Positions 23,698 through 50,927 of a stretch of DNA of 64,000 nt are shown here, in pieces. The DNA is taken from positions 1-64,000 of the forward strand of contig NZ_JAERJA010000005.1 of NCBI RefSeq assembly GCF_016827675.1. Reading direction: 5' to 3'. Within the stretch, counting starts at the first letter, position 1. The number at the start of each line of letters is the position of its first letter. The position numbers and the translations under genes were made by a program. Source of the stretch: Nocardioides limicola. GTDB taxonomy: Bacteria > Actinomycetota > Actinomycetes > Propionibacteriales > Nocardioidaceae. The notes beneath the pieces are model-generated. The model did not search any database. It was given only the letters and a program-made list of their open reading frames with translations, and had not been told where the DNA came from.

Positions 23698-23826
23698 CAG
23701 GAGTTCCTGACTTGACGACGGGTACGTCGTACACAGTGGCGGGACCGTGCCGGAGTCTCACCGGCTTCCTCCGCTGTGTCGCCCACGGTGGCGGCGCGTC
23801 CGGGTGGACGCACCGAGGCCGAGCAT
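23698..23826 (-). promoter_or_regulatory. Cobalamin riboswitch upstream of cobN
   Basis: The minus strand carries the conserved core GGAAGCCGGTGAGACTCCGG (23769-23750), then CACGGTCCC, then the B12 box GCCACTGTG (23740-23732) and the 3' element GTCAGGAAC. These are the diagnostic blocks of the AdoCbl riboswitch. It lies 50 nt before the cobN start. A possible -10 (TATGCT, 23827-23822) sits at its 5' edge. Binding of adenosylcobalamin is expected to reduce expression of cobN-chlID-cobO-cobB-cobC. Confidence 0.94.
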
Positions 23827-24924: not shown

Positions 24925-26049
24925 GTGATCGAGCAGCCAGAGTCCGTCGACGGCGACCGCTGCCCCGGCGCGCTGCGTCTGCATCAGGCCGACGACGGGC
25001 ACGTCGCTCGGATCCGGGTGCCCGGCGGGCGGCTCACGGCGCGGCAGTTGGTGGCCCTCTGCGATCTCGCCGACGACCTGGGGGACGGCTGCCTGCATCT
25101 GACGTCGCGGGGCAATGTGCAGGTGCGGGGGCTTGCTGGCGACGTCGGGCCCGCGCTGGCGACCCGGCTGTCCGCGGCCGGTCTGCTCCCGTCGCTGGCC
25201 CACGACCGGGTCCGCAACGTCGTCGCCTCCCCGGCGCCGGACCTGGACGGCGTACTGGCCGAGTTCGATGCGGCCCTGTGTGCGGATCCACGGCTGACCG
25301 CGCTGTCGGGGCGGTTCCTGTTCGGCCTCGACGACGGCTCCGGGGAGATCCTTGCCCTCGCCCCCGACCTCGCCACCCAGCGACGAAGTGTCACAAATGG
25401 GCCGACGAGGTTTCAGTTGTGGGTGGCCGGGGTGCCCACAGGCCTGTACGACGACCCGGTGCCGCCGCTGCTCCGGGCAGCCGCCGCGTTCCTCGACGTA
25501 CGTCCCGACGGAGCCTGGCGGGTCACGGACCTGCCCGCACCCGAACTCGCCGCCCTCCGCGGTGACACAGCGGCCACAGGCCCCACCTCGACGGGCCACA
25601 AACCCCACCTCGGCGGGCCACAAACCCCATCTCGGCGGGCCACAAACCCCACTTCGGCGGAGGGGTGGATGCCGTTGGGGAGCGCGGTGACGTCGCAGTG
25701 GCGGGTCGTGGCCTCGCTGGTGCGGGAACAACTGGCGCAGGCGCAGTTGGTGCTGACGCCGTGGCGGAGCGTGGTGCTGCGCGGCGTGACACCAGCCGAG
25801 GCCCACACGGCCCTGCCCGACTGGGGGTTCGCCGCCGACTCACCTCAGGCGCTCACCAGCGCCTGCATCGGGGCCCCCGGCTGCGCCAAGTCACTGGCCG
25901 ACGTACGCGCCGATGCCGCCGGCCTGGCCAGCGCGAATCCCGGCCGCCGACTGCATGTGAGCGGGTGCGCCCGCAGGTGCGGGCACCCGATCGGGGATCA
26001 TCTGGAGGCGGTCGCGACCAGCGACGGGTACCAGGTAGGAGAGCACTGA
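24925..26049 (+). CDS. cobG: Precorrin-3B synthase (siroheme/4Fe-4S reductase-like)
   Basis: 374 residues. It belongs to the nitrite/sulfite reductase ferredoxin-like family (LTSRGNVQVRGL) with the 4Fe-4S ligand pattern C314-x5-C320 ... C348-x3-C352 (CIGAPGC, SGCARRC). CobG uses O2 to make precorrin-3B and marks the aerobic pathway. Around residues 217-245 four tandem 22-bp repeats encode a foreign-looking insert (HKPHL, PQTP, ATNPTSA) also present in CobB. GTG start at 24925. The stop overlaps cobH by one base (TGATG). Confidence 0.94.
   Translation: MIEQPESVDGDRCPGALRLHQADDGHVARIRVPGGRLTARQLVALCDLADDLGDGCLHLTSRGNVQVRGLAGDVGPALATRLSAAGLLPSLAHDRVRNVVASPAPDLDGVLAEFDAALCADPRLTALSGRFLFGLDDGSGEILALAPDLATQRRSVTNGPTRFQLWVAGVPTGLYDDPVPPLLRAAAAFLDVRPDGAWRVTDLPAPELAALRGDTAATGPTSTGHKPHLGGPQTPSRRATNPTSAEGWMPLGSAVTSQWRVVASLVREQLAQAQLVLTPWRSVVLRGVTPAEAHTALPDWGFAADSPQALTSACIGAPGCAKSLADVRADAAGLASANPGRRLHVSGCARRCGHPIGDHLEAVATSDGYQVGEH
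25572..25659 (+). repeat. 22-bp tandem repeat, four copies, inside cobG
   Basis: Units start at 25572 (diverged), 25594, 25616 and 25638; the core is GGCCACAAACCCCACCTCG plus three bases. They are read in sense orientation and, over copies 2-4, give the same peptide blocks as the cobB copy. Confidence 0.95.
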
Positions 26050-26681
26050 TGCAGTACGAGAAGGACGGCAACGCCATCTATGAGGAGTCCTTCGCGACCA
26101 TCCGCCGCGAGGCCGACCTGGGTCGGTTCGACGCCGACACCGCCCAGGTGGTGGTGCGGATGATCCACGCCTGCGGTCAGGTCGACCTGGCTGCCGACGT
26201 GGCGCACACCCCCGGACTGGTCACCGCCGCCCGCACCGCCCTGGCCGCCGGGGCGCCGATCCTGTGCGACGCCCACATGGTCGCCTCAGGGGTCACCCGA
26301 ACCCGGCTGCCGGCCGACAACGAGGTGATCTGCACGTTGCGCGACGAACGAGTCCCGGCGCTGGCCGTCGAGCTCGGCACCACCCGCTCCGCCGCCGCCC
26401 TAGAGCTGTGGCGCGACCGACTCGACGGCGCCGTGGTCGCGATCGGCAACGCCCCCACTGCACTGTTCCACTTGCTGGAGATGATCGCTGCCGGCGCACC
26501 CAGGCCCGCTGCCGTGGTCGGCATCCCGGTCGGCTTCGTGGGCGCGGTGGAGTCCAAGCAGGCGCTGGCCGAGAGCGACCTGGGTCTGGAGTGGCTCGTC
26601 GTACACGGCCGCCGCGGCGGCTCTGCGATCACCGCAGCCGCCCTCAACGCCCTGGCCACCGAGCAGGAGATCATCCGCTAG
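26049..26681 (+). CDS. cobH: Precorrin-8X methylmutase
   Basis: 210 residues. It matches CobH/CbiC throughout (VVRMIHACGQVDLAADV, ILCDAHMVASGVTR, IGNAPTALFHLLEM, GIPVGFVGAVESK). The active-site His is expected in the MIHACG block. It moves the C11 methyl to C12, forming hydrogenobyrinate. The ATG overlaps the cobG stop. The next gene 3' is a vapB antitoxin 40 nt away rather than another cob gene. Confidence 0.96.
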   Translation: MQYEKDGNAIYEESFATIRREADLGRFDADTAQVVVRMIHACGQVDLAADVAHTPGLVTAARTALAAGAPILCDAHMVASGVTRTRLPADNEVICTLRDERVPALAVELGTTRSAAALELWRDRLDGAVVAIGNAPTALFHLLEMIAAGAPRPAAVVGIPVGFVGAVESKQALAESDLGLEWLVVHGRRGGSAITAAALNALATEQEIIR

Positions 26682-26710
26682 TGGTAGAGTGGTACCTTCT
26701 GATGGTAGAG
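26682..26710 (+). promoter_or_regulatory. Direct-repeat region before vapB (possible operator)
   Basis: Two TGGTAGAG copies (26682-26689 and 26703-26710) 21 bp apart, about two helical turns, flank GGTACC. This is the spacing expected for cooperative binding by a ribbon-helix-helix antitoxin. It also contains a -10-like TAGAGT. Inference only. Confidence 0.4.
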
Positions 26711-26721
26711 AGGGTAGACGC

Positions 26722-26973
26722 ATGGGTCTGAACATCAAGAACGAGCATGTTCACCAGCTCGCCCGCCTGGCCGCCCAGCGCACCGGGACCACCCAGACCG
26801 GCGCCATCGAGGCTGCGCTCGAGCAGTACCTCGCCGGTCTCGACGAGCCTCAGCAGCGCTCGGCGCGGCGGGCCCGCGTCGACCTGATCCTTGCCGATGT
26901 CGACGCCAGGCTCGGGGATGGGCCCGGGCTCAGCACCGACGAACTGTACGACGACGCCGGGTTGCCCGCGTGA
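26722..26973 (+). CDS. vapB: VapB-type antitoxin
   Basis: 83 residues. The N-terminal ribbon-helix-helix-like segment (MGLNIKNEHVHQLARLAAQRTGTTQTGAIEAALEQYL) binds DNA in such antitoxins. The C-terminal acidic tail (LSTDELYDDAGLPA) would wrap the toxin. I use the ATG at 26722 with AGAGGG upstream. Its stop overlaps the vapC start (GTGA). It lies between cobH and cobIJ, so the pair is carried inside the cob operon. Confidence 0.9.
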   Translation: MGLNIKNEHVHQLARLAAQRTGTTQTGAIEAALEQYLAGLDEPQQRSARRARVDLILADVDARLGDGPGLSTDELYDDAGLPA

Positions 26974-27368
26974 TCGTCGACAGTTCAGCCCTGATCGCCG
27001 TGTTGGCGGCCGAACCCCTCCGTCCGCGACTGCTTGACGCGATGCTGGCCGCCGAGCGGCTGCTGATGTCGGCAGCCACCTACCTGGAGACCGCCGCCGT
27101 CATCGATCGCCGCGGCGACCCGGTGCTCTCCCGCCGGCTCGACGAGCTCCTCGAAGCCCTCGGCCTGGAGATCGTCGAGGTATCCCCGGACCAGGCCCGG
27201 CTCGGGCGGGAGGCCTACCGTGACTTCGGCAAGGGCTCGGGGCATCCGGCCGGCCTGAACTACGGGGACTGCTTCACCTACGCGCTGGCCAGGGACAGCG
27301 GGCTGCCGCTGCTGCACACCGGCGACGACTTCAACCACACCGACGTACGAACGGAGACCGTTCAGTGA
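26970..27368 (+). CDS. vapC: VapC-type PIN-domain toxin
   Basis: 132 residues. PIN-domain acids are visible: D4 (MIVDSSAL), E40 (TYLETAAV), the Asp of NYGDCFTYALA and the final Asp pair at HTGDDF. These ribonucleases cut tRNA or rRNA when antitoxin is lost. The GTG start overlaps vapB. The stop overlaps the GTG of cobIJ by 4 nt, so toxin translation and cobIJ translation are coupled. All catalytic acids look intact. Confidence 0.93.
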   Translation: MIVDSSALIAVLAAEPLRPRLLDAMLAAERLLMSAATYLETAAVIDRRGDPVLSRRLDELLEALGLEIVEVSPDQARLGREAYRDFGKGSGHPAGLNYGDCFTYALARDSGLPLLHTGDDFNHTDVRTETVQ

Positions 27369-28948
27369 CGGCCATCGAGACCTCCCGACCCACCCGTCCG
27401 GGACGTTTGTACGGCGTCGGGCTGGGCACCGGCGACCCCAAGCTGTTGACGCTGCGAGCGGTCGAGGTGATCGATCAGGTCGACGTGGTCGCCTATCACT
27501 CCGCCCGCCATGGGCGCTCGCACGCACGGCGGATCGCGTCCGCGCACATCCGCGCCGACCACATCGAGGAGCACCTGGTCTATCCGCTGACCACCGAGAC
27601 CACCGACCACCCGGGTGGGTATCGCGGCGCCATCGAGGAGTTCTACACCGAAGCCGCCGCCCGGCTCGCCGCGCACCTGGACGCCGGCCGCGACGTGGCC
27701 GTGCTGTCGGAGGGTGACCCGCTGATCTACTCCTCCTACCAGCACATGCACAAGCGGCTGGCGCATCGCTATCAGACCGAGACCGTGCCTGCGGTCAGTT
27801 CGATCTCGGCGTCCGTGGCTGCACTGGGGGTGCCGCTGACCGAGGCCGACGAGGTACTCACCGTGCTTCCGGGCACGCTCCCCACCGAGGAACTGGCCGC
27901 CCGGCTGGCCTCCACCGACTCCGCGGTGGTGCTCAAGCTGGGCCGCACCTTCGGGTCGGTGCGGGAGGCGTTGGCGCGCGCCGGGCGACTCGAGGACGCC
28001 TGGTTCGTGGAGCGGGCCACCATGGACGAGCAACGGATCGCGCGGTTGGCCGAGGTGGATCCGGACGAGGTGCCGTATTTCTCGATGGCGGTGCTCCCCT
28101 CGAAGGTCGCCGGGATGACGCCGAGGATCGGCACCGTCGACGGCGAGTCGCTCAACGAGTCGCTGGTCGAGCCTGTCGAGACCGAAGCCTCCGGGACGGC
28201 CGCCGGCTCGGTGACCGTGGTCGGCACCGGCCCGGCCGGACCGATGTGGCTCACCCCCGAGGTCAAGGGCGCGCTGGCGACCGCCGACGACATCGTCGGG
28301 TACACGACGTACGTGAAGCGGGTGCCCGAGCGTCCCGGCCAGGTCCGGCACCTGTCGGACAACAAGGTCGAGTCCGAGCGCGCCGAGTTCGCGCTCTCGC
28401 TGGCTTCGCAGGGGCGCCGGGTGGTGGTGGTCTCCAGCGGCGACCCGGGCGTCTTCGCGATGGCCACCGCGGTGCTGGAGGTCGCTTGCGAGCCGCGGTA
28501 CGCCGGCGTACCGGTGCAGGTGCTGCCGGGGATGACCGCCGCGCACGCCGCCGCCGCCCGGGTCGGCGCCCCGCTGGGGCACGATTACGCGACCATCTCG
28601 CTGTCGGACCGGCTCAAGCCGTGGGACGTGATCGCCCAGCGGATCCGGGCCGCCGCCGAGGCCGACCTGGTGCTGGCCATCTACAACCCCGCCTCCTCGG
28701 AGCGGCGCTGGCAGGTCGAGGCGCTCGCCGAGTTGCTGATGGAGATCCGCAAGCCCGACACCCCGGTGGTGCTCGCCCGCGATGTCGGCGGGCCCACCGA
28801 ACAGATCCGGATCGTCGACCTGGCCACCCTCGACCCGGATGTGGTGGACATGCGCACCCTGATCCTGGTCGGCTCCTCGCAGACCCAGCGGGTGGACCGC
28901 GCTGGCGGGGACACCGTGGTGTGGACGCCGCGGCGCTACCCGGAGTAA
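27365..28948 (+). CDS. cobIJ: CobI-CobJ fusion: precorrin-2 C20- and precorrin-3B C17-methyltransferases
   Basis: 527 residues with two class III SAM methyltransferase domains. CobI is ~1-245 (YGVGLGTGDPKLLTLRA, VLSEGDPLIYSSYQH). CobJ is ~283-527 (VTVVGTGPAGPMWLTPEV, VVSSGDPGVFAMA, IYNPASSERRW). CobIJ fusions are known in mycobacteria. The linker (~245-282) contains a GGTCGAG-CCT-GTCGAGACC element in frame. GTG start coupled to vapC. The TAA is one base from the convergent gene's stop. Confidence 0.95.
   Translation: MTAIETSRPTRPGRLYGVGLGTGDPKLLTLRAVEVIDQVDVVAYHSARHGRSHARRIASAHIRADHIEEHLVYPLTTETTDHPGGYRGAIEEFYTEAAARLAAHLDAGRDVAVLSEGDPLIYSSYQHMHKRLAHRYQTETVPAVSSISASVAALGVPLTEADEVLTVLPGTLPTEELAARLASTDSAVVLKLGRTFGSVREALARAGRLEDAWFVERATMDEQRIARLAEVDPDEVPYFSMAVLPSKVAGMTPRIGTVDGESLNESLVEPVETEASGTAAGSVTVVGTGPAGPMWLTPEVKGALATADDIVGYTTYVKRVPERPGQVRHLSDNKVESERAEFALSLASQGRRVVVVSSGDPGVFAMATAVLEVACEPRYAGVPVQVLPGMTAAHAAAARVGAPLGHDYATISLSDRLKPWDVIAQRIRAAAEADLVLAIYNPASSERRWQVEALAELLMEIRKPDTPVVLARDVGGPTEQIRIVDLATLDPDVVDMRTLILVGSSQTQRVDRAGGDTVVWTPRRYPE
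28165..28183. repeat. GGTCGAG...GTCGAGACC element in the CobI-CobJ linker
   Basis: A 19-bp imperfect palindrome, complement of the canonical GGTCTCGACAGGCTCGACC form, sits in frame (encoding LVEPVETE) exactly between the two methyltransferase domains. Confidence 0.85.
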
Positions 28949-49303: not shown

Positions 49304-49953
<650 letters not shown>

Positions 49954-50015: not shown

Positions 50016-50927
50016 GTGGAACCGCTCGGCCAGTACCCCGATCCCACCCATGTGGTGGCTCACCTCAGCGACCCGCATCTGCTCGCCGACAGCCTGCAGT
50101 ACGGCGCCATCGACACCGCCGCGCACCTGGAGCGGGCGCTCACCCGCCTCGGCCGCCTGCCCACCCCGCCCCAGGCGCTCATCTTCACCGGGGACCTGGC
50201 GGACAAGGCCGAGCCGGCGGCGTACGCGAAGCTCCGGGAGATCGTGGAGCCGGTGGCTGCACAGATCGGCGCCGAGGTCGTCTGGGTGATGGGCAACCAC
50301 GACGACCGGCGGGCCTACGCGCAGGGCCTGTTCGGCGTCGACACCGAGGCGCCCCAGGACCGGGTCCATGACGTCGCCGGTCTGCGGATCGTCGCGCTCG
50401 ACACCAGCGTCCCGCACTGGCACCACGGCGAACTCTCCGACGACCAGCTCGACTGGCTTCGCGACGTCCTCGCCGAGCCGGCTCCGCACGGGACCCTGCT
50501 CGCCCTGCACCATCCGCCGATTCCGGTGCCGATGCTCCGCCTGGCCGAGCTGATCGAGTTGCACGACCAACCGCGTCTCGCCGAGGTCCTCGCCGGGACC
50601 GACGTGCGCGGCATCCTCGGGGGACACTTCCACTTCACGTCGTGGTCCACCTTCGCCGGCGTACCGGTCTCGGTCGCCTCCGCGACCTGCTACACCTCCG
50701 AGCTCGCCCCGGACCAGCGGCTGCTGTCCGCCGTCGATGCCCACCAGTCCTTCACCATGCTGCACCTGTACGACGATCGGGTGGTGCACTCGGTCGTGCC
50801 GGCCACCGACGGGCCCGAGGTCAGCGGCTACGGGCTGGAGATGCTGGAGCCGTTCCTCGCCCTGACGCCCCAGCAGCGCTTCGAGATGGTCTCCCACCGG
50901 AACTCCCCGCTCAACCGGCCCGACTGA
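50016..50927 (+). CDS. Metallophosphoesterase (CpdA / class III cyclic-nucleotide phosphodiesterase-like)
   Basis: 303 residues. All metal motifs are present: LSDPH (D19, H21), FTGDLAD, VMGNHD, LALHHPP and GGHFHF. Matches the CpdA/GpdQ group hydrolysing cyclic nucleotides or phosphodiesters. GTG start at 50016 with a modest upstream AGGG. The last codons (NSPLNRPD) are duplicated just after the stop as a 30-bp imperfect repeat. Confidence 0.92.
   Translation: MEPLGQYPDPTHVVAHLSDPHLLADSLQYGAIDTAAHLERALTRLGRLPTPPQALIFTGDLADKAEPAAYAKLREIVEPVAAQIGAEVVWVMGNHDDRRAYAQGLFGVDTEAPQDRVHDVAGLRIVALDTSVPHWHHGELSDDQLDWLRDVLAEPAPHGTLLALHHPPIPVPMLRLAELIELHDQPRLAEVLAGTDVRGILGGHFHFTSWSTFAGVPVSVASATCYTSELAPDQRLLSAVDAHQSFTMLHLYDDRVVHSVVPATDGPEVSGYGLEMLEPFLALTPQQRFEMVSHRNSPLNRPD

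Follow-up and report, generated by a model that had tools for sequence, protein, structure and literature searches.

A VapB30/VapC30-type toxin-antitoxin module inserted at the cobH-cobIJ junction of Nocardioides limicola, with a putative operator and promoter of its own

The locus described here raises the question of how a vapBC toxin-antitoxin pair came to lie inside a cobalamin (B12) synthesis operon, and what its presence means for the gene that follows it. In the DNA analyzed (the window; 64,000 nucleotides of contig NZ_JAERJA010000005.1), the operon runs on the plus strand and begins with cobG, a precorrin-3B synthase-like gene (24925-26049; open reading frame and profile search), followed by cobH, encoding precorrin-8X methylmutase (26049-26681; PF02570/PRK08285) and now ending in TAG (26679-26681). 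A spacer of exactly 40 nt (26682-26721) separates cobH from vapB (26722-26973, with its ATG at 26722), after which come vapC (26970-27368) and cobIJ (27365-28948), which starts with GTG and encodes CobI and CobJ fused, i.e. precorrin-2 C20- and precorrin-3B C17-methyltransferase. In profile searches CobH, CobIJ, VapB and VapC were all well above the Pfam cut-offs. The vapC GTG (26970) overlaps the vapB TGA stop (26971-26973) in a GTGA at 26970-26973, and the cobIJ GTG (27365) overlaps the vapC TGA stop (27366-27368) in a second GTGA at 27365-27368. Because cobG and cobH are likewise joined by an ATGA overlap, at 26049, the 40 nt before vapB are the sole gap in the operon. The initial annotation had described a pair embedded between cobH and cobIJ, with vapB 40 nt after cobH and a GTGA overlap at either end of vapC; the distance is right to the base, both overlaps are exact, and the embedding is borne out by the coordinates and by the translational overlap with cobIJ.

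As in type II VapBC systems, a PIN toxin with its acidic residues is preceded directly 5' by a small antitoxin gene that overlaps it by 4 nt, and both genes are intact. VapB matches PF07704 (PSK_trans_fac) over its full length at 1.4e-17 and is the only PF07704 protein encoded in the host genome, while VapC matches PF01850 (PIN) at 1.4e-18. Among solved structures VapC is by alignment nearest to VapC30 of Mycobacterium tuberculosis (VapBC30, Rv0623-Rv0624; PDB 4xgq, 4xgr), which was its sole match (3.4e-32, full length), and residues D4, E40, D100 and D120, numbered from the translation, align with the VapC30 acids. The antitoxin may be related to VapB30: its match covers residues 1-39 (E 0.014), its C-terminal half having diverged here, and its family PF07704 is the 'Rv0623-like' one. 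Unlike VapBC30, the present pair sits inside a metabolic operon. The groups COG4423 and COG3742 presumably correspond to VapB30 and VapC30, and vapB is COG4423-like. An RHH protein of COG4423 with a PIN protein of COG3742 is a listed toxin-antitoxin pairing (PMC2701414). The toxin of VapBC10 from Sinorhizobium meliloti, like VapC here, is VapC30-like, in that case by the authors' own comparison, and cleaves the tRNA-Ser anticodon loop (PMC10945364). A second, unrelated toxin-antitoxin pair occupies 49304-49935 of the window on the minus strand, with a Phd/YefM antitoxin (49711-49935) and a PIN toxin (49304-49714).

Whether relatives join cobH directly to cobIJ had been proposed as a check, and they do: the two genes are adjacent in about 151 of about 153 members of the order having both. 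Among 145 related genomes, 86 cobH-cobIJ pairs from 85 genomes had -19 to +83 nt between match ends, and in a wider sample of the order, about 68 more genomes, all pairs were at most 95 nt apart except those of G212 (L138) and G329 (L139). In these two genomes, both of genus g22, about 1.26 kb lies between cobH and cobIJ and reads, by eye from the translation, as cobG; this junction thus accepts other genes. A toxin-antitoxin pair was present at the junction in none of the roughly 153 relatives compared. The nearest relative found (G367), whose CobH and CobIJ are 81% identical to those of the window, preserves an empty site, GAGATCATCCG-ATGA, in which the cobH stop overlaps the cobIJ start: cobH ends GAG ATC ATC CGA TGA and cobIJ begins ATG ACT GGA, the ATGA being common to both. 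In the window cobH ends GAG ATC ATC CGC TAG and the spacer follows, so that identity with the empty site stops after GAGATCATCCG at 26677 and the left junction falls at 26677-26678. The N-terminus of CobIJ reads V-T-AIETSRPTRP-GRLYGVG in the window and M-T-GNLYGVG in G367, a difference of 30 nt or ten codons (AIETSRPTRP; 27371-27400) that is probably an insertion scar. Comparison of the two junctions indicates that the insert replaces the old overlap, that a new stop closes cobH, and that the toxin stop now overlaps cobIJ; the TAG was probably supplied by the insert or lies at its edge. No VapC of the same group was detected in G367 at 1e-15. With the empty site, this implies either that insertion postdates the split from G367 or that the pair was lost there, and loss is made unlikely by the other relatives. 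On this comparative evidence the vapBC pair is a lineage-specific insertion. The arrangement goes beyond chance, since it is absent from about 153 relatives and the motif pair of its spacer (see below) is found a single time in 3.72 Mb. Neither a clear target-site duplication nor a mobile element was seen at the insertion. As a candidate duplication, the last 12 nt of vapC match the old cobH end at 7 of 12 positions, the best of 64 vapC ends but too weak to be accepted. Two weak matches were all that spoke for a phage origin, which was rejected. At 69-70%, the G+C content of vapBC differs little from that of the host (71%), and by composition the pair is therefore not a fresh foreign insert. 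The same VapC family is found in 473 plasmid records, which makes a mobile module plausible.

These comparisons also bear on the suggestion in the initial annotation that the pair stabilizes the cluster, i.e. that vapBC is an addiction element holding a horizontally acquired cob cluster in place. This view draws on the CobIJ tree, in which the species falls, together with G367, among other families (f4 and f3), far from most of the genus. However, G367 has the same cluster, collinear, without vapBC, and about 150 relatives, this sister included, keep their cob genes without it. As the sister and nearly all relatives have retained the cob genes in the absence of vapBC, stabilization is not supported, and we regard it as very improbable. 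A foreign origin of the cluster is itself uncertain, because the single discordant control gene may be the one that was transferred. That gene (50016-50924, metallophosphoesterase-like) shares 80-87% identity with those of genus members, unlike the grouping of CobIJ (window about 15.8-37.2 kb; L100), and probably one of the two, CobIJ with its cluster or this gene, was transferred. As support for stabilization the foreign cluster was set aside: one control gene conflicts with the CobIJ tree, and the flanking synteny with G034 and G082 amounts to that gene alone.

The G+C content of the spacer, 52.5%, is in the lowest 1.3% of 40-mers in the window, and a motif survey found in it a putative operator repeat 1, TGGTAGAGTGG (26682-26692), a putative operator repeat 2, TGGTAGAGAGG (26703-26713), 21 bp from the first, and a third GGTAGA copy (26713-26718) immediately 5' of vapB. 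Repeat 1 holds TAGAGT (26685-26690), a proposed -10 hexamer, and repeat 2 doubles as the vapB Shine-Dalgarno sequence (GAGAGGG). The pattern GGTAGA-N12-18-GGTAGA occurs once in the host genome, at this spacer, versus 10 occurrences of a reversed control pattern. The survey covered vapB homologues at 57 other loci, reached via their VapC, from actinobacteria, alphaproteobacteria and acidobacteria, giving 58 with the window. GGTAGA lies within 70 nt upstream in 40 of the 58, other phyla included, versus 0.7% of random 70-mers from the same loci, and at least two copies are present in 29 of the 58 versus none of the random 70-mers; some of these loci are related by descent, and the counts are therefore not probabilities. 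The usual distance between copies is 21-24 or 7-9 nt, with pair spacings peaking at 21-24 nt, and 38 of the 40 loci bearing the motif have at least one GGTAGANT, in which a copy followed by NT yields TAGANT, a TANNNT -10 hexamer. The start codon follows this T-bearing copy at about 14 nt in the leaderless type and at about 38 nt in the leadered type, to which the window belongs, and the motif recurs in surroundings that are not otherwise related. One subgroup of vapB (MALNIKN.RVC; L073, L117, L118 and L120) has a variant operator-like repeat, GGTGTAA, in place of GGTAGA. No published link of GGTAGA to VapB was found in a small search limited to open papers, those listed among the papers with both strings looking unrelated by title and abstract, and GGTAGA may be an undescribed, cross-phylum putative operator motif of the VapB30 group.

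The spacer is not cob sequence and bears these repeats, and the module would therefore have brought its own operator and promoter. We infer that VapB binds the repeats and that TAGAGT acts as the -10 element, with transcription predicted to start at about 26697. A test for a promoter at 26682-26721, as proposed in the initial annotation, gave a divided answer: there was no sigma-70 consensus match, a scan that fits actinobacterial promoters poorly, but the region holds a strongly conserved, family-specific putative operator and -10 region. If vapBC lacked a promoter of its own, it would be expressed solely within the cob operon, as its tight spacing and the missing consensus promoter match might suggest. 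Such an arrangement is quite improbable given that the motif is conserved with vapB over unrelated loci and phyla and is unique in the genome. A separate promoter together with a terminator would have isolated vapBC from the cob transcript. The promoter is probably there, whereas a terminator scan found none after vapC. Because of this, cobIJ should be read from the vapBC promoter also, and most likely it is transcribed both from there and by read-through from cobG and cobH.

The initial annotation further suggested that ribosomes leaving vapC would feed cobIJ. The overlap is real and this is plausible, but cobIJ has its own GGAG (27353-27356, identified by sequence and pairing energy) within the vapC 3' end, 8 nt before its GTG, and coupling need not be obligatory. 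The pairing energy is -6.6 kcal/mol versus -7.4 at the native junction of G367, and as random stretches also reach both values (5% quantile -8.5), the figures allow a comparison but are no proof. Since cobIJ keeps its own Shine-Dalgarno sequence, translation of the toxin gene need not be required for that of cobIJ. One could propose that vapBC was retained because it became a regulator of B12 synthesis, with VapBC autoregulation, by derepression under stress or by a bound repressor blocking polymerase from cobG and cobH, setting the supply of CobIJ. The putative operator upstream, the missing terminator and the translational overlap with cobIJ would all fit. So would the fact that no cobalamin riboswitch precedes cobG-cobH-cobIJ on its strand at Rfam's threshold; the only one in 14000-40000 (RF00174, 39.6 bits) is at 23701-23771 on the minus strand, upstream of cobN. 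Nevertheless, the arrangement is known from one genome and is not conserved, cobIJ retains its Shine-Dalgarno sequence, and read-through from cobG and cobH is possible, so that this role is doubtful. By title and abstract, no relevant published link of vapBC to cobalamin operons was found.

Taken together, we favor, with a probability of roughly 85%, the explanation that a complete, autonomous and autoregulated VapB30/VapC30-type module inserted into the cobH-cobIJ ATGA overlap, bringing its own operator and promoter and leaving cobIJ as its distal gene. A type II module consisting of operator/promoter, vapB and vapC, without a terminator, would have entered the 4-nt overlap after the split from the nearest relative, and the toxin stop would have taken the place of the cobH stop in overlapping the cobIJ start. 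The spacer would serve as autoregulatory operator and promoter, its GGTAGA direct repeats standing about 21 bp apart, the upstream one doubling as the -10 hexamer and the second holding the vapB ribosome-binding site. VapB would bind the repeats and repress, best with VapC as co-repressor, and its degradation under stress would free VapC and derepress the promoter. Repression by VapBC, loss of antitoxin in stress, toxin release and derepression make up the general VapBC cycle (PMC10945364). The freed VapC, a putatively toxic PIN ribonuclease, would by homology probably cut a tRNA, which is tRNA-Ser in the characterized relative. cobIJ would then be the distal gene of a vapB-vapC-cobIJ unit and still of the old cobG-cobH operon.

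Toxin-antitoxin pairs that bring an operator but lack a terminator are known, as are pairs inserted into a biosynthetic operon, and this locus is a well-resolved new instance of such behavior. The minimal transferring unit has been described as promoter/operator plus two open reading frames without a terminator, the next gene being co-transcribed, as for the horizontally moved mazEF (relA-mazG) and relBE-relF of Escherichia coli (PMC5120126). The present locus would be similar in this respect; however, the spacers in those cases are 9-218 bp (PMC5120126), whereas here the toxin stop and the start of the following gene share 4 nt. In Thermus thermophilus, the lysine operon of strain HB8 contains an MNT-HEPN pair that is missing from HB27 (PMC2701414), likewise a toxin-antitoxin pair in a biosynthetic operon of one lineage with an empty sister, although the toxin and antitoxin families differ from VapBC.

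The closest parallel comes from genus g8, where in G199 (L118, L140) a vapBC pair with a toxin of the same VapC family is flanked by recF and dciA, and the vapC stop overlaps the dciA start by GTGA; in G369 (L142), where the vapC-dciA junction was read and recF was not, the overlap is ATGA. This is a different operon, and G199 has the GGTGTAA variant operator. In G101 (L141) a shortened vapC tail (TALAIDLFTHTDVRRGGLR and a stop) is left and the dciA overlap persists, while G213, G248 and others of the comparison have no vapC remnant before dciA. Together with the cobH-cobIJ case, this means that embedding by overlap has occurred at least twice in this VapC family and that the overlap can outlast a decaying toxin gene. 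The decayed tail in G101 lends weight to viewing the pair as a neutral passenger, a selfish module at a site that is harmless since the overlap and the cobIJ Shine-Dalgarno sequence were kept, and one that will decay. Both genes are still intact here with their catalytic acids in place, which argues the other way, but on balance we lean towards this view, which is compatible with the explanation of an autonomous inserted module.

It is possible, although unlikely, that VapB30-type modules repeatedly land at operon start-stop overlaps and thereby bring CobIJ and DciA under a toxin-antitoxin circuit; if so, an enzyme of B12 synthesis would answer stress signals that degrade VapB. The locus offers a base-level view, before and after, of a toxin-antitoxin module entering an operon with translation of the downstream gene unbroken, and a simple test case for whether a biosynthetic gene can come under the control of a toxin-antitoxin promoter. 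The locus holds a caution as well, since deletion of such a pair would be polar on cobIJ. By a loose test, an open frame starts -30 to +40 nt from the vapC stop at about 11 of 62 vapC loci, with a 4-nt overlap in three, and most modules are therefore not embedded in this way. In G143 (L080) a vapBC of the same family adjoins divergent cobU- and cobS-like genes, one case that is within chance.
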